DNA from: Cellulosilyticum lentocellum DSM 5427
GTDB taxonomy: Bacteria; Bacillota; Clostridia; Lachnospirales; Cellulosilyticaceae
Direction of reading: 5' to 3'
Length of the DNA: 64,000 nt
Assembly: GCF_000178835.2 (NCBI RefSeq)
Contig: NC_015275.1
Coordinates: 1,013,001-1,077,000 of the forward strand
Position 1 is the first letter of the stretch. Each line of letters starts with the position of its first letter. The notes beneath the pieces were generated by a model that searched no databases, was not told the origin of the DNA, and worked only from the letters and a program-made list of their open reading frames with translations. Made by a program: the position numbers and the translations under genes. This document shows, in pieces, positions 3,552-48,277 of the stretch.

Positions 3552-3639
3552 GTGATGAATGCCTAGTAAAATCATAAATAACTATTGTAATCTTTAGTAT
3601 TCTATTTTATAATAGATGCAAATCTTATAAAATAATAGC

Positions 3640-3870
3640 GATGATAAAAGAAAAGCTTAAGATGTATTTTTCAGAGAACTAGTGGTTGGTGAGAACTAGT
3701 AAATAGACTTTGGCGGTCCGCTTTTGGAGCTACTGGTGATGAATCAGAGGGAGCAGCCCTTTATAGCAGCGTTGGAGGTTAATAACTTCGGTTATTAATA
3801 AATGAAGGTGGCACCACGGGAGAGTCTCGTCCTTTTTATTCACAAAACGTTGAATAGAAGGACGTTTTTT
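3640..3870 (+). promoter_or_regulatory. T-box leader controlling serS
   Basis: The T-box signature GGTGGCACCACGGG lies at 3807-3820, followed by a terminator hairpin (3828-3870: CGTCCTT stem, GAAGGACG return arm and T6 run). Stem I material fills 3675-3770. A candidate specifier AGC (serine) is at 3728-3730, though UAC overlaps the neighbouring position and the stem was not folded. Uncharged tRNA-Ser would stabilise the antiterminator and allow serS transcription. The next gene is seryl-tRNA synthetase, which supports serine specificity. The 5' boundary is approximate. Confidence 0.9.
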
Positions 3871-5252: not shown

Positions 5253-5303
5253 AGTTAGGTAGTTAATGAAGGTTATAGTTCGAAAAATAATATAAAATTT
5301 TAC

Positions 5304-5355
5304 AAAAAGAAGTGTCATACAACTTGTGGATGTGAGTTGTATGACACTTCTTTTT
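5304..5355. terminator. bidirectional terminator after serS and after the minus-strand RNA
   Basis: A perfect 21-bp inverted repeat (5304-5324 and 5335-5355) with a 10-base loop has A5 on one side and T5 on the other, so it can stop transcription from both strands. The 11-mer TATGACACTTC of its right arm (5340-5350) recurs at 5409-5419 inside the neighbouring RNA element. Confidence 0.88.
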
Positions 5356-5373
5356 GTGCCGCTAGGCATTGAT

Positions 5374-5587
5374 CTATAAATTTCTTGCTAACAAGCCAAT
5401 GATTAGGTTATGACACTTCAGCGTAGCGCCACTACTGTCACATAACCGCAGGATAGGTTTTAAATGTGCACAGTAGTGGCAGCGTAGCGAATTGCGCAGA
5501 GCCTAGTGAAGTATGTAAGCTATATGACGCACCACGGCGAAACACCGTAGCATAAAGGCCAAGAAATTTATAGTACACAATTTGGAT
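5374..5587 (-). ncRNA. candidate structured RNA downstream of the reverse transcriptase (msr-msd-like)
   Basis: The element is bounded by a perfect 14-bp inverted repeat, CTATAAATTTCTTG at 5374-5387 and its complement at 5560-5573, like the a1/a2 pair of retron RNAs. Inside is a hairpin of about 20 bp (5428-5447 with 5456-5480, two small interruptions). The hairpin is flanked by a perfect 10-bp direct repeat, CAGCGTAGCG at 5419-5428 and 5480-5489. A short ACGG/CCGT stem-loop lies near the other end (5534-5548). There is no ORF. A minus-strand promoter precedes it and a terminator follows, giving a transcript of about 280 nt. Known retron RNAs lie upstream of the RT; this one is downstream. 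It could instead be a dispersed palindromic repeat. Confidence 0.55.
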
Positions 5588-5593
5588 AGTAAA

Positions 5594-5622
5594 ACTATAA
5601 CATGAAAAGTGATGGAATTCAA
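5594..5622 (-). promoter_or_regulatory. sigma-A-type promoter for the RNA downstream of the RT
   Basis: On the minus strand, TTGAAT (5617-5622) and TATAGT (5594-5599) are separated by exactly 17 bases. The start point would be near 5587, about 14 bases before the 14-bp inverted repeat. It lies after the RT stop codon, so it would serve the RNA independently of the operon. Confidence 0.5.
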
Positions 5623-5681
5623 TAATAATTGTAAAAAGTGTATAATTATTTAACGTGTAATGTAAGAAAAATGATATAGTG

Positions 5682-7169
5682 TTAGAAATGAGCTATTACA
5701 CTTAAACCAGCTTCAATAATAGTTTTGTAGCGTTCAGGATTGACACTTTTAAGCCAAGAGGTTTTACCTTGAATTTCTTGTGATAACGAAGTAGGAATAG
5801 GCTGACCTGTTTGGTTAAGGAGTTTGGCGTGATGAATGGCAGCACGAAGATTTTTGACCCACTTTTTAGGAACGCCTATTTCTTCATTATTAATAACGAT
5901 GCCTGTTAAACATTGCCTGTTATGAGGACGAAGTATTTTCGTTTTTGAAGCTTTAATATGAAACCCTTCATCTTCTACAATGAGACTTACTAATCCTAGA
6001 AACTGCCCTAACTTAAGATTTTCCTCAGCTTCGTTATAGCTAAAGCTCATATCATCAGCATATCTAGAATAGGTCAGCTGATAGGTAGCTGATAGGCCCT
6101 TTAAACGATGGTCTAGATTTTTACAAATAATATTGGTAATCATAGGGCTTGCAGGAGAGCCTTGAGGAAGTATGCGAGGTGAAGTTTTTACATATTTAGT
6201 AGTTCCACTTACTTCAATAGTCATGCGCTCACAATAGGTGCAAAGCATAGCTAGTAAAGAAGCGATATAACCTGAGTAGCCAAAGCTTTTATACATACCT
6301 CTTACTCGCTCAAAGGTAAGGGTAGGAAAGAAGTTTTCTAGGTCCATGGTAATCAATAATGTAGGCGCTTTTATGTGGGCCTCGGCACTAGAAACAACAG
6401 AGCGATTTTTAATAAACCCATGAGCTTCTTCAGCAATAGGTAATTTTTCTAGTATTTCTACTAGAATTTTTCTTTGAACCTGTTTTAAAAGGGGCTTAGG
6501 GGCAGCTATTTGGCGAAATCCGCCTTTTTTCTTAGGTATTTCATAGCGATAGTAATGGTCAGAGGTGACCACATCACGATGATAAGTAAGGAATCTTAGC
6601 TCTGTATAGGTAAGTCCCAGAAAACTAGCTAACTGATGATCTGTTTCGATAAGGGGGAGACCTAAACTTTCTAATTTGCTAGTATGGGTCAATTTGTCTT
6701 GCAGACCACTAGAGTAACCTTTACCGATAAAAACAATGTTTTCAGTTTTTGCTTTTTGCCAAGCGGCTGATTTTTCAGCTTGGGCTACTTCGCGTTCTTT
6801 TTTACGCTCAGCTCGTCTAGCTATTGACTCTGCCATAATAGTTTTGGCAATGTCTTGGCGGATTTTTTCATAATCCCAGGTGGCAGTATATTTCTTTTTT
6901 AATTCCTGAAGCTTAAGATTAATGGCCTCTTTTTCTCCATAAAGATTGGCCAGGTCATTACTAAGCTTGTCGTATTCTTTTAATAGTGCTTTTCGCTTTT
7001 CATAATCTTCTTTAGTTTCAGCTTTTTGCTTTTCATATGGTGTAGGTAAATTTTTAGGCCAAAAGCCGTATTCCTGCATTTTTAATAAAGTAAATTCCTT
7101 TTTACCTTTTTGACTTACTTCACTTCGATAACTTTGTCTTTGATTTTGTGAATGTGTTTGATCTATCAT
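5682..7169 (-). CDS. retron-type reverse transcriptase with N-terminal extension
   Basis: This 495-residue RNA-directed DNA polymerase would synthesise cDNA from a cognate RNA. Residues 1-165 are a charged, coiled-coil-rich extension. The RT core follows: HGFIKNRS near 250, motif A TMDLENFFP near 275, LPQGSPASPMITN near 335 and YADDM near 370. Two retron marks are recognisable in variant form: AEAH (NAxxH motif) near 262 and LTGIVIN (VTG motif) near 421. The C-terminal thumb has the family-like GKTSWLKSVNPERY. There is no maturase, HNH or DGR feature. Its ATG overlaps the stop of the SWIM gene by 4 bases, so translation is coupled. I infer a defence system. Confidence 0.9.
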   Translation of the reverse strand: MIDQTHSQNQRQSYRSEVSQKGKKEFTLLKMQEYGFWPKNLPTPYEKQKAETKEDYEKRKALLKEYDKLSNDLANLYGEKEAINLKLQELKKKYTATWDYEKIRQDIAKTIMAESIARRAERKKEREVAQAEKSAAWQKAKTENIVFIGKGYSSGLQDKLTHTSKLESLGLPLIETDHQLASFLGLTYTELRFLTYHRDVVTSDHYYRYEIPKKKGGFRQIAAPKPLLKQVQRKILVEILEKLPIAEEAHGFIKNRSVVSSAEAHIKAPTLLITMDLENFFPTLTFERVRGMYKSFGYSGYIASLLAMLCTYCERMTIEVSGTTKYVKTSPRILPQGSPASPMITNIICKNLDHRLKGLSATYQLTYSRYADDMSFSYNEAEENLKLGQFLGLVSLIVEDEGFHIKASKTKILRPHNRQCLTGIVINNEEIGVPKKWVKNLRAAIHHAKLLNQTGQPIPTSLSQEIQGKTSWLKSVNPERYKTIIEAGLSVIAHF

Positions 7170-8974
7170 AATAACGTCTCCATAATATCATTTATTTTAT
7201 AAACCTTATGATATTCTAAATCTAGCTTTAAAAATTTTGAGGACATCATATATAAAGCAAGAATATGAGCACAAGGCGCAGAGATATTTCTAGGACCTTT
7301 TTGGAAAACTCTACAGTTGCAGTTTACCATGCAAATCTCACCATCATTATTAATAGAAAGAGTTGTATCCGTTAAATCAAATTCTCTTTCATAGTCAGGG
7401 GTATTTCTAAAATTCCAGCGGTGATATTTTTCATTAGGCATTTGAAGATGATGGGTAAAAGTAAAGATTTGTTCTGGATTAAGCTGAGCCGTAAAATAAT
7501 CCATTCCTTCATTTAAATGATTTTGTACCTTTGTTTCAATAGGTGTTGTCTCATATAAGGCTAGAGGAATAGGTGTATTACAAAGCTGTCTAAAACGAAT
7601 AAGACCATGGACTAAGTCAAAGTAGCCCTCACCACGTTTTAAGAGGCTACCAATGCCAGCTTTGCAAAGCGATTTAGAGTCTTCCGGAATCAAGTGATAG
7701 ATTTGATCAAAGCTTAAGGCACGCTTTTCTTTTAAAAGCTTGTAGATTTTTGGATAATTACCTTCACCAATAAAACCTGCCATAACATTAAAGGCTGTCC
7801 CTTTGACCCAATCATTACTAGACCAAGAGGATAAACCGATTGTAAGTTTCATAGTACCTAAGTCAGCTGTAATAAACTGAGGCATACCAAAGCCCAGAAG
7901 TTTCACTTTAAAGCTTTTGGCTAAAGGAATTAATTTTTCGGCCACCAGAAAACGGCGTCTGCCCCAAATCTTTTCCTCGCGTTTTTTGCTTCCAGTATAA
8001 TAGGTTTGTAAAGTAAGAACTGTTTTAAAAGGTTCAAAGACAATTTCAATAGGCTTATTAGGTGTCAAAACCCATTTCATATAACGAGGACTTTTATGAG
8101 CTTTATGTCTTTTCAAAAAGCTACAAATGTCATAAAAATCAATAGGTGATAAGTCTAGTTCTAAACCATCTAAGCTAGCAGCTGCAGAGACCTGATTAAA
8201 GCCTTTAATCCAAGTTTCAGGTAAGTCAATTTTCTTTTCTAAATGTTCAGGTAGGACACCGCTAGCTACAGTAAAGCCACCAGGATTAACAGAAAGAACT
8301 ACATCATTATAGGTTCGAAAGCGTTCCATTTCCTGAGCAAGTTTGTAAGAAAAGTCAATATTGGTAGTGCCCAGCTTAGGAGGTGCTAAGAGTTCAAATT
8401 CCTCTTTGTCTATGGATAAGATACCATAAATAGATTCATCTAAAGAAAAAGCCTCGAAAGATACTTGATCTTCATGAACTGTAATAACAGGATCTAAAAC
8501 AAACCAGAGGTCTAAATCCTTGTTTTTGATATATTGCCAAAAGCTACGTTCTAGCTTATAGTAGTCTTTCCAAGTATCAGAAGCATCAATTTCTTTCTTT
8601 AAAGCAGCTTTTACCTCTAGTAATTTAGCAATTTCATCATCTTTTGAACCAAGTGCTTCTATGGTTTCATCAATATCTTGAGAAAGAGAAGCTCTTAACT
8701 GAGGGGCATATTGGTCATGTAATACAACACGGCGTTCAATTTCTCTATCTAACCAGTCAAAAAATTCTACACGCTCTTTTTTAGCGGGCCTTGCATCTGA
8801 AATAACAATTTGTCTAAGCATAAGCATAGCATCACGAAAAATGAGAGGGTGCTTTAAACGTCCTAAAAAGGAAACTTGCTCACTTCTTGAAAGATCAGGA
8901 CTAAGGCCTAGAGTTGTTTGATTATTTTCTTGGGTGCAAAGAGAAGGACTTGCATAATCATAATTAACTTTCAT
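7166..8974 (-). CDS. winged-helix / SWIM zinc-finger protein of the RT operon
   Basis: The 602-residue protein ends with a SWIM zinc finger: Cys552-x-Cys554-x13-Cys568-x-His570. Upstream, around residues 420-470, the stretch from LSFDQIYHLIPEDSK to GLIRFRQL reads like a winged helix. The N-terminal two thirds has no motif I recognise. SWIM fingers bind DNA or protein partners and occur with AAA/VWA or RT modules. The start overlaps the end of the preceding helical-repeat gene by 11 bases and its stop overlaps the RT start by 4, so the three genes form a tight operon. The likely role is partner or effector for the RT and its RNA/DNA product; this is inference. Confidence 0.8.
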   Translation of the reverse strand: MKVNYDYASPSLCTQENNQTTLGLSPDLSRSEQVSFLGRLKHPLIFRDAMLMLRQIVISDARPAKKERVEFFDWLDREIERRVVLHDQYAPQLRASLSQDIDETIEALGSKDDEIAKLLEVKAALKKEIDASDTWKDYYKLERSFWQYIKNKDLDLWFVLDPVITVHEDQVSFEAFSLDESIYGILSIDKEEFELLAPPKLGTTNIDFSYKLAQEMERFRTYNDVVLSVNPGGFTVASGVLPEHLEKKIDLPETWIKGFNQVSAAASLDGLELDLSPIDFYDICSFLKRHKAHKSPRYMKWVLTPNKPIEIVFEPFKTVLTLQTYYTGSKKREEKIWGRRRFLVAEKLIPLAKSFKVKLLGFGMPQFITADLGTMKLTIGLSSWSSNDWVKGTAFNVMAGFIGEGNYPKIYKLLKEKRALSFDQIYHLIPEDSKSLCKAGIGSLLKRGEGYFDLVHGLIRFRQLCNTPIPLALYETTPIETKVQNHLNEGMDYFTAQLNPEQIFTFTHHLQMPNEKYHRWNFRNTPDYEREFDLTDTTLSINNDGEICMVNCNCRVFQKGPRNISAPCAHILALYMMSSKFLKLDLEYHKVYKINDIMETLL

Positions 8975-11924
8975 AAGCTGAGAACTCCTTTCTGATTTGG
9001 GCGAGACTCATTAATGCACGCTCACTGTCTCGTTTAATATTTGAACCACCAATGGCTAAAAGTTCGGCTTCAACGACTTCCTTAAAACTAGGATTTTGTA
9101 AAACAAATGAAGGAAGCAGCTTGTAGATGATATCTTTACTTTTTGAAATCTTATTAGGTAGTAGCAAAAGGGTTTTTACATAATACATGAAGGTCTCAGC
9201 ATTTTCTGTACTTAAGTCCTCTAGAATAGCATCTATTTTATGACTGATATAAGCTTTGACTTCACTACTAGGATGTTCTAAAAGCTGAAGGATAAAAGTC
9301 TTAGGAATAAAATCACCATACAGCTTATCTAAATTTAAAAGTCCATAGTTATAGACCTTAGGCAGAGGCGAATCAATGATAAGCTGATGTGGTAATACAG
9401 AAGCTTCTTGAGGCAAGGCTTCAAATACACTAGTAGCTAAATCATTAAGTACGACCACGTCAGACTCCAGCATAAGAAGTAAAAGCGTAGGTCTCTGCGG
9501 TAAGGTGCTTTGTAATTTTTCTAATAAAGTAAGTAAGGTTTTTATCATAGGGGGATTACCTTCTTCTAAAATGAGCTTGAATGCTGCATCAGAAGGTAAG
9601 GTTTGCTCCTTAATAGCGGTTAATAAAGCTAATAGATGCTTTTGACGCTGAGCTACAGGCAAGGCGGTTTCTAGATTTCCGTCACCTTTAAGAAGTACTT
9701 CTAAGGTATCTTCATTAAAGGAGAAAAGGAGGCATTCAAAATAATTTAAGAAGCTAGAAGAAAGCTTTGGTACCTGACTAAGTACATTTCTTATATGCAT
9801 CATAACATAGCTGGCTTTTTCGAAAGATAAGCTTTCTAGCTTGTGAGCTGATAGCAGAAGGAGTTCTTCAAGTTCGCTTGTAAGCTTTGGTGTTTCGTCT
9901 TTAAAAGTAATGAGCTTTTCGGTTAAAGCGACGATGAAATCTGCATACTGATTCATATCTAATGCCATTAGCTCACCTTGAAGGGTCTCTAACCAGCCAT
10001 CAGCGTGTTCTAATAAAATACATTCTGTTAGCAAAAGAGGAGAGAAAGAGCCGTTAATTTGTGATATATATTGAAGTGCAAGCGCTTTGATTTTTTCGTT
10101 AGATGTATCCATTAAAGCTAGCAGCAACTTTGGTTCACAAGTGGTACAAGCATTAAGTCTTTCATTTAAATACTGCATAAATAATTCTGCCAAAGGTAAA
10201 AAAGCTGACTGGCTAAGAAGAATAAGCTGCTGATGAGAAAGAGTGGTTACTAGCTCAGTTGTAGTAGGAGATTCTTTTATGATGTAGTAACAGGCTTTCT
10301 GAATAGAAGGAATTTGTGCATGACTAGCAATGTAAAGGACATCTTCTAAGTGCTGATCCCATAGCTCCTTCATCATTTCATAACGTCCATTTAGTTTCAT
10401 CAGCTGATCTTCACTAAACCAACTATATCTATTGCGCCAATTGGTAGGTGGCTTTTCAGTGAAGTCATGATAAAGGTAACGGCGAATAAAATAGTTAAAC
10501 TGAAAATTACCAGGGAATCTACAAAGATAATCATCACAGGTATAGCTAGGCAGTAAGGATTTCATAGCAGCTATAAATAAGTCAGGTTGGTTTTTAGCAT
10601 AATCATCTAAGGTGCGCCTTACACTTCCAATAAGATAGTTATAAGCTTTTGTTTTACCTGAGCCTTTAAAGTAATATCTAAGTCTAGGTGCATCTAGGTA
10701 ATAGGCTAATTTCCCAACTACATCAGCTAAGTCATAGGAAATGGCTTCTTGAAGTGTATTTTTAAAAGCTAAAATATTAAGATCATAGCCATCGGTATAA
10801 GGGCCTACTTTATAAAAGGCGGGATAAGTCCTTTTAATAGAGGTACGAAGCTCCCGGTCATATGTCCAGTAATCTTTCTTAAAAACACCTTGATTAGCAA
10901 ATGTATGATATTGAGCACCAGAGAAACGTTTACCTTCAGCAACTGGTTTGCCTTGAATATTGATTAAATGCAAATCTGCATCAGGCAGCATCTTATAAAT
11001 AGTTTGGAGGCGTGCTTGTTTTAACTTAGGATCTAATGTGTGAACATAAATATTAGCACAACGCAAAACACCTTGACTGTAGCTTGTACTTTCAAAGTTA
11101 ATAGGATTTTTAAGAAGTTCCTTGGTTTCTTCTATTAAGATAGGATTTTTACGTTTTGCAAGTTCTAGGCAAAGTCCTGAAATAAGCTCGGAGTTCCCAA
11201 TTTTAAATAGCAATTGTAAAAGCTCAGCAGGTGGATTTTGATCAAGCAACGCATTTAAATATTTTTTTCTCATATACAAAAGCGGATGGGAAAGGATTTG
11301 GGACATCTCAGAATAATATTTAAAGGTATCACCTGAAAGTTTTAGAAAATCATTAGGGTGCTTAGCTAAGGTGAAATTAGAAAATACTAACCCTTGTTTT
11401 TCTAACTGCACCACATAGTATTCATAAGGTGGTGGATTAAAGTAAGTGAAAGTTGTAGGAGCCTCTAGTGGCTTAAAACTTTCTACAAGGCTATTAGCAT
11501 CTGTATGGTAACGCCAGTCATAAGATACACCTTTTTTATAATACATTTTTTTCTGCTCATTCTCAGTAAGTATTTTTAAAGCCTCAAAGCTAGGTAAGTG
11601 ACCTTCATGGCCTTTAAAAATAGCATAGTGAGTATAAGTCACTTGTTCGTCTAGAAAAGAGGATTGAGTCGGGATAATAGCCTTAGGTGGATCAGGGTTC
11701 TGAGTGGCAGAGGAGCTAAATAAAGATTTGAATAAAGAACCGAGAAATCCTGTTTTGTCGGAGGAGATGGTAGAAGTAGCCGCAGGTGAGCTAGTAGTTT
11801 CATACTGATGTTCCCCATAGAGCACTAAGAAGCTAGGATTATGATTATTATCCCAACCCCATAGAATCAGGTTTCTAATGGGAAGATAAGGTTTATTCCA
11901 TTGTTTACGATTTGGATTTGACAT
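8964..11924 (-). CDS. large HEAT-like helical-repeat protein of the RT operon
   Basis: The 986-residue, mostly helical, leucine-rich protein has no signal peptide or membrane segment. Residues 1-40 (LILWGWDNNHNPSFLVLYG) are followed by a serine/alanine-rich low-complexity linker (about 45-85). From about 230 to the end there are successive amphipathic helix pairs, as in HEAT/ARM solenoids. No nuclease or ATPase motif is visible. Such proteins act as scaffolds or sensors; with the SWIM protein and retron-type RT it may form a toxin or sensor complex. It is first in the operon, with the promoter at 11973-12001 and a weak AAGGTAGG ribosome site. The repeat assignment is by eye. Confidence 0.7.
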   Translation of the reverse strand: MSNPNRKQWNKPYLPIRNLILWGWDNNHNPSFLVLYGEHQYETTSSPAATSTISSDKTGFLGSLFKSLFSSSATQNPDPPKAIIPTQSSFLDEQVTYTHYAIFKGHEGHLPSFEALKILTENEQKKMYYKKGVSYDWRYHTDANSLVESFKPLEAPTTFTYFNPPPYEYYVVQLEKQGLVFSNFTLAKHPNDFLKLSGDTFKYYSEMSQILSHPLLYMRKKYLNALLDQNPPAELLQLLFKIGNSELISGLCLELAKRKNPILIEETKELLKNPINFESTSYSQGVLRCANIYVHTLDPKLKQARLQTIYKMLPDADLHLINIQGKPVAEGKRFSGAQYHTFANQGVFKKDYWTYDRELRTSIKRTYPAFYKVGPYTDGYDLNILAFKNTLQEAISYDLADVVGKLAYYLDAPRLRYYFKGSGKTKAYNYLIGSVRRTLDDYAKNQPDLFIAAMKSLLPSYTCDDYLCRFPGNFQFNYFIRRYLYHDFTEKPPTNWRNRYSWFSEDQLMKLNGRYEMMKELWDQHLEDVLYIASHAQIPSIQKACYYIIKESPTTTELVTTLSHQQLILLSQSAFLPLAELFMQYLNERLNACTTCEPKLLLALMDTSNEKIKALALQYISQINGSFSPLLLTECILLEHADGWLETLQGELMALDMNQYADFIVALTEKLITFKDETPKLTSELEELLLLSAHKLESLSFEKASYVMMHIRNVLSQVPKLSSSFLNYFECLLFSFNEDTLEVLLKGDGNLETALPVAQRQKHLLALLTAIKEQTLPSDAAFKLILEEGNPPMIKTLLTLLEKLQSTLPQRPTLLLLMLESDVVVLNDLATSVFEALPQEASVLPHQLIIDSPLPKVYNYGLLNLDKLYGDFIPKTFILQLLEHPSSEVKAYISHKIDAILEDLSTENAETFMYYVKTLLLLPNKISKSKDIIYKLLPSFVLQNPSFKEVVEAELLAIGGSNIKRDSERALMSLAQIRKEFSAYES

Positions 11925-48234: not shown

Positions 48235-48277
48235 AAAAAAACAGCTTATAGGTTTTAGCCTATAAGCTGTTTTTTTA
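48235..48277. terminator. terminator after tRNA-Arg(CCU)
   Basis: A7-CAGCTTATAGG pairs with CCTATAAGCTG-T7, a strong symmetric hairpin. Confidence 0.88.

Follow-up and report, generated by a model that had tools for sequence, protein, structure and literature searches.

Eco1 (Ec86) is an example of the standard retron cassette. The division of retrons into types, type XIII included, is said to come from Mestre et al. in 2020. We know of no RNA of the DRT defence systems that has an msr-msd anatomy bounded by a1 and a2 ends. In the standard cassette the msr-msd sequence lies upstream of the reverse transcriptase (RT), as outlined in an account of retron RTs (PMC6868368); this layout, on the same strand as the RT, is typical rather than defining.

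We have analyzed a stretch of 64 000 nucleotides of Cellulosilyticum lentocellum DSM 5427 (NC_015275.1), here called the window. It contains an element that is very probably the msr-msd template RNA of a type XIII retron, lying behind the RT gene with a promoter of its own. Like the RNA of a standard cassette it has paired a1 and a2 ends, an msr hairpin, a long msd hairpin and a dedicated RT. Unlike that RNA it follows the RT on the 3′ side and has a promoter to itself, or in relatives precedes the operon on the other strand, and it sometimes forms arrays. We describe a retron whose RNA may be able to move and is sometimes multiplied, and make no claim that the layout is unpublished. A literature search of titles and abstract openings, with the type-defining papers outside its range, found nothing on a type XIII RNA, on retron RNA arrays or on Asgard retrons, and a text search with the same limit gave no joint mention of 'retrons' and 'type XIII'; five papers do mention both retrons and Asgard. 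The type XIII RNA and its 3′ place may already be recorded in the literature.

The operon and the structure of its RNA

The operon is transcribed on the minus strand in the order ARM-SWIM-RT, and matches all three PADLOC protein families of retron type XIII. It therefore shares with that type the same three families in one operon, and a retron-type RT. The RT (495 aa, 5682–7169) has a YADD motif, and RT_XIII is the top match among 56 PADLOC families (518 bits, E 6e-156). NCBIfam gave five matches to it, each below its cut-off. The SWIM protein (602 aa, 7166–8974) matches SWIM_XIII over nearly its whole length (572 bits) as well as the Pfam SWIM family. The third protein (986 aa, 8964–11924) is a HEAT/ARM-like alpha-solenoid protein, here termed ARM, and differs from the described type in matching WGR_XIII only in part (78 bits). 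It has no match in Pfam; its assignment draws on a structural model (pLDDT 86.8), for which Foldseek returned generic alpha-solenoids with low TM scores. The model of the SWIM protein has a pLDDT of 80.5, and the best 50 of its 488 Foldseek matches (E ≤ 0.001) are all PCNA or 9-1-1 sliding-clamp entries (best E 5e-8, target TM 0.18–0.63, rmsd 6.6–24.7). Since the matches listed are all clamps, part of the SWIM protein may be clamp-like, and a partner of this kind would suit the sensing of replication or the holding of msDNA.

Retron RTs are marked by the motifs NAxxH in region X and VTG in region Y, with substitutions of the N and the V known in validated retrons, according to PMC6868368. We aligned the window RT with 33 of 52 relatives, the sequences judged full-length; alignments made on the same basis hold the window and 34 of 52 SWIM proteins, and the window and 32 of 47 ARM proteins. 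In all 34 rows of the RT alignment A262 and H265 of region X and T422 and G423 of region Y are invariant. The N of NAxxH is replaced by S or G and the V of VTG by L or I, which we count against the preferred reading.

The RNA and its transcription signals lie between 5622 and 5302 on the minus strand, which is that of the RT, behind the RT stop. The first-pass annotation had read from the letters alone a promoter with a 17-nt spacer at this place, a perfect 14-bp end pair, a long hairpin with 10-nt direct repeats, and a terminator, and each of these is present. The −35-like TTGAAT (5617–5622) is followed after 17 nt by the −10-like TATAGT (5594–5599). The a1 end (5560–5573) forms a perfect 14-bp pair with the a2 end (5374–5387), and 13 of the 14 pairs of this helix show two-sided change over 51 sequences. 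Next to a1 lies G5559, the candidate branching guanosine by comparison with retrons in general, which is G in 51 of 51 aligned elements. There follows an msr-like hairpin (helix 2, 5531–5551), paired in 98.0% of cells and with two-sided change in five of its nine pairs. The basal msd helix (helix 3) pairs 5494–5503 with 5406–5416 and is paired in 97.4% of cells over 51 rows; the window's own copy has two mismatches here, and these we also count against the preferred reading. Above it stands the msd-like hairpin (5428–5480), made of 11 perfect base pairs (5470–5480 with 5428–5438), a bulged G5469, a further 5 bp (5464–5468 with 5439–5443) and a loop. A terminator-like inverted repeat of 23 perfect base pairs (5302–5357), with T-runs on both sides, separates the RNA on the minus strand from serS on the plus strand, and could be used in both directions. 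A T-box leader (Rfam RF00230, 102 bits) lies at 3632–3837 on the plus strand, upstream of what is apparently the seryl-tRNA synthetase gene.

Folding of 5290–5640, terminator included, gives −112 kcal/mol (z = −9.3), and none of 100 shuffled sequences was equally stable, so the hairpins exceed what chance would give; the element alone (5370–5577) has z = −6.1. The direct repeats CAGCGTAGCG (5419–5428 and 5480–5489) make sense in the light of the relatives, since by eye GCTNCGC is present on both arms of the msd-like stem in many clostridial copies, where the pair could form a symmetric internal loop. The 11 nt TATGACACTTC are common to the terminator stem (5340–5350) and to the conserved 3′ part of the msd (5409–5419), through chance or duplication. 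No Rfam 15 family reaches its gathering score on the window element, and the 14 sub-threshold matches all fall inside 5280–5404, on or beside the terminator.

Conservation beside the reverse transcriptase and rival explanations

How general is this RNA beside related RTs? A profile seeded with 14 elements (the window and 13 loci), chosen by their inverted ends, found it beside 44 of 55 homologous RT loci, including 31 of the 42 loci that were not seeds; many of the elements so recovered had been overlooked by an initial inverted-repeat scan. SWIM is present in 54 and ARM in 52 of the 55 loci. The absences are contig-end cuts, and in L007 the ARM match is partial and displaced. A covariance model built on 51 elements recovers the identical 44 loci, and spans the window element from end to end at 177 bits, the window being one of the 51 training rows. 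The alignment comprises 51 of 56 elements, with the omission of L050 (a near-copy of L024), L020 and L045 (cut by contig ends), L042 (an odd 3′ end) and L011:7491 (a poor copy). Over these sequences the 36 consensus pairs hold in 97.1% of cells, and 27 of them show two-sided change, compared with a mean of 16.1 in shuffled alignments (none of 500 as high) and 11–16 in slid controls. The variable msd stem lies mostly outside the 36 consensus pairs. Nevertheless the msd region folds as a long hairpin in 51 of 51 cases, with a mean of 26 bp and a mean z of −6.3 (range −11.7 to −2.6).

The first-pass annotation had advised searching for conservation next to homologous RTs and for further copies in the genome. 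The former was found in abundance, as above, with strong covariation. On the latter, the host genome (4.71 Mb, one contig) holds a single copy, the other match being to the terminator palindrome on the opposite strand only. Among 391 genomes of the class the model matches six, five of them strongly (175–202 bits), and those five are exactly the five that have SWIM_XIII (E ≤ 1e-20). Three of the five (G068, G372 and G389) are training loci (L001, L013 and L009) and G000 is the window, leaving G168 as the sole independent positive, so this comparison speaks mainly for specificity, through the 386 genomes that lack SWIM. The sixth genome (G249) has a match of 33 bits over 89 nt and no SWIM. In the covariance-model search 12 of the 68 matches score 11.8–20.4 bits, one of them in the window at 48236–48276; these and the G249 match are probably chance hairpins.

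The annotation had favoured a cognate msr-msd on the 3′ side of the RT, with a genomic palindromic repeat as the competing idea, and its preference is largely supported. Inverted ends and an inner palindrome could belong to a REP, a MITE or a similar repeat that happens to lie near an RT, but the element has one genomic copy, is kept with the operon and changes in a compensatory manner. For these reasons we reject the repeat, which has practically no probability left, and regard the cognate msr-msd as the best reading. We also rejected, as very improbable, the idea that the element acts in cis as the leader or terminator structure of an adjacent gene. The element does stand between two genes and ends in a terminator, but the neighbours in the window converge on it; in 21 loci the RNA precedes ARM, is encoded on the other strand and has a separate promoter-like site, and three genomes carry it on a contig where neither ARM nor RT was found.

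That the RNA might be a needed partner of the RT without 2′-5′ branched copying, serving as a scaffold or as a template like those of the DRT defence RTs, is unlikely but has more in its favour. Structured RNAs associated with RTs are reported outside retrons, in work on DRT systems (PMC12039810 and PMC12483538), and the DRT systems resemble our locus in having an RT with a structured RNA beside it; moreover, reverse transcription from the window RNA is a prediction. Against this, the RT family differs, with 518 bits to RT_XIII compared with 31.8 bits to Drt2 (cut-off 390), and the paired ends, the invariant G and the residues of the X and Y motifs are retron features.

With the msr-msd reading preferred, the retron anatomy, in which the a1 and a2 ends pair, the G following a1 is invariant and an msr hairpin is succeeded by a long msd hairpin, suggests how the system might work. 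The RT would bind the RNA and prime from the 2′-OH of G5559 next to a1. Copying of the msd would be expected to start at GUUAG (5392–5388), just 5′ of a2, and to proceed through the hairpin, giving a branched 2′-5′ RNA-DNA hybrid (msDNA) that carries a long hairpin of DNA. By analogy with retrons already studied, a complex of RT and msDNA would hold the ARM and SWIM proteins inactive, as putative toxic effectors, and interference by a phage with the msDNA or with replication would set them free. By the same analogy the retron is likely to be an anti-virus system.

Layout, transcription and multiplication of the RNA

The usual retron layout does not occur here. In 23 loci and the window the RNA shares the strand of the RT and follows it on the 3′ side, in most cases 18–300 nt past the stop, so that this layout is common within this branch of type XIII. 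The distance is 0.8–3.2 kb in L001, L021 and L040. In L043 it is 168 nt if measured from the end of the long ORF and 825 nt if measured from where the RT match stops, and the figure of 1193 nt for L015 results from a broken frame and is spurious. In the other 21 loci the nearest copy starts 169–316 nt upstream of ARM, on the opposite strand. On an RT tree of 55 rows, made by a quick method, a single change of layout is needed when the eight rows of unknown layout are left out and L026 is scored as opposite-strand, and it maps to a mainly Lachnospiraceae clade with a support of 100; nine changes are needed if unknown layout is treated as a third state. Rooted on L158, which has a very long branch and at most a candidate RNA, the 3′ layout looks ancestral.

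Seven further genomes have the RNA outside the stretch examined at the RT locus, and together with the 44 loci this brings the RNA to 51 of the 55 genomes. L026 has it on the operon's contig but on the other strand, ∼2.6 kb before the start of ARM. In the genomes of L023 and L028 it is on another contig, divergent from an ARM gene, and in that of L051 it follows an RT fragment on another contig; a split assembly would give either result. The genomes of L014, L038 and L049 hold it on contigs with neither ARM nor RT in 12.4 kb (the whole contig), 15.0 of 35.0 kb and 10.4 kb (the whole contig), respectively. These contigs (L169, L170 and L171) may reflect true detachment or faulty binning, and an RNA on another contig in three genomes whose RT locus has none is what a trans-acting RNA could produce. 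No RNA was found genome-wide for L016, whose flanks are complete, and L039, where 3.2 kb past the RT were covered, which are real negatives, nor for L019 and L047, where contig ends cut the expected side.

Considered by itself the window promoter is weak, with a score of 10 where shuffled sequences average 9.1; the recurrence of comparable sites in front of the related RNAs lends it weight. The 26 elements placed 3′ score 8–12, where shuffled means over all rows are 8.2–9.7, and TTGAA(T/A) with TATA(A/C)T is found in 11 of the 25 besides the window. Five of them (three of L011 and one each of L021 and L040) score no better than shuffles. In each of the 21 opposite-strand loci a strong promoter-like site precedes the first copy (11–13 of a possible 13), while none of the nine later array copies measured has one (8–10). 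The RNAs are thus probably transcribed apart from the operon, and an array as one unit.

Such arrays are found in several genomes. Counted genome-wide there are six copies for L044, four for L053, three for L011 and two each for L035 and L046, in tandem arrays that share a common frame (L044:59–1201, L053:285–1198, L011:7491–8215, L035:864–1294 and L046:802–1257). The L040 genome has three copies on three contigs, and in the genomes of L038 and L028 two copies lie side by side. Named carriers are Clostridium sp. MD294 (ASF356), with four copies, and Clostridium uliginosum DSM 12992. In the arrays of L044 (five of the six copies measured), L053 and L035 the stem arms are only 29–43% identical between copies, whereas the a1, msr, frame and a2 segments are 79–100% identical, the linkers 60–92% and the loop 60–76%. 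The alignment behind these identities, made with MAFFT, does not always keep the stems in register, and the L011 copies are outside the measurement. The msd stems of an array differ yet stay paired. The L046 array has stems that are 73–79% identical.

The distinct stems are retained, as shown by L044 and L053, whose RTs are 96.7% identical and whose four common copies nearly match, with 34 of 42 to 39 of 40 stem letters the same. Unusually fast change of the stems between strains was considered and rejected on the same comparison, only the copies within an array being different. In the window's own branch the stems are ∼80% identical, like the frame, and the diversity is therefore limited to some lineages.

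A bolder and much more tentative suggestion, to which we would give rather less than an even chance, is that the RNA gene acts in trans as an independent module, which has been moved, detached and multiplied. One RT would then serve a co-transcribed array of up to six RNAs as a repertoire of DNA baits, each directed against a different phage nuclease, methyltransferase or DNA-binding protein, and this would work in Asgard archaea also. Two other retrons are triggered by a methyltransferase, with a GATC site on their RNAs, as reported in PMC12548924. Arrays whose copies keep the frame but vary in their paired stems offer a direct test of the msd stem as a sensor. A search for retron RNAs that is confined to the region upstream of the RT will miss those that are 3′, on the opposite strand or unlinked, and will leave type XIII without a template; the covariance model built here detects the type XIII RNA.

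Asgard archaea and distant relatives

Two of the type XIII operons with RNAs, L011 and L040, are assigned to Candidatus Lokiarchaeota. SWIM_XIII occurs in six of 195 genomes of that Asgard phylum, and is strong and full-length in three, those of L011, L040 and G593. The G593 operon (L166:5014–11911, contig G593:C3) is on a contig of 1.48 Mb, adjoins genes for a Ras-family GTPase and a ferredoxin-oxidoreductase, and contains all three type XIII proteins, with an RT 37.5% identical to that of the window. It is followed by three tandem RNAs, much diverged from the others, the first of which begins 9 nt past the RT stop. Their model scores of 25, 22 and 16 bits are near noise, and the case for them is made instead by their place, by 214-nt repeats that are 88–90% identical, by paired ends and an msr-like hairpin, and by stems that differ with compensation (22–29 of 34 letters common in the stems, and 159–169 of 180 in the remainder).

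Viral contigs contain 58 relatives of the RT, the best being 35% identical over part of its length, and among phage records 43 have an RT match, none of which covers 80% of the RT. A distant type XIII operon is found in Methylobacterium bullatum (L158). The covariance model has no match there; at 77 nt past the end of the RT stands a 12-bp inverted pair (L158:10867–10999), which has a fold z of only −2.4 and is possibly a diverged 3′ RNA. Plasmids contain two relatives of the SWIM protein. On an Asticcacaulis plasmid (L159:4782–9070) a SWIM zinc finger gene stands beside a DUF6493 gene with no RT annotated nearby, and this gene pair is perhaps an RT-free relative of the protein pair.
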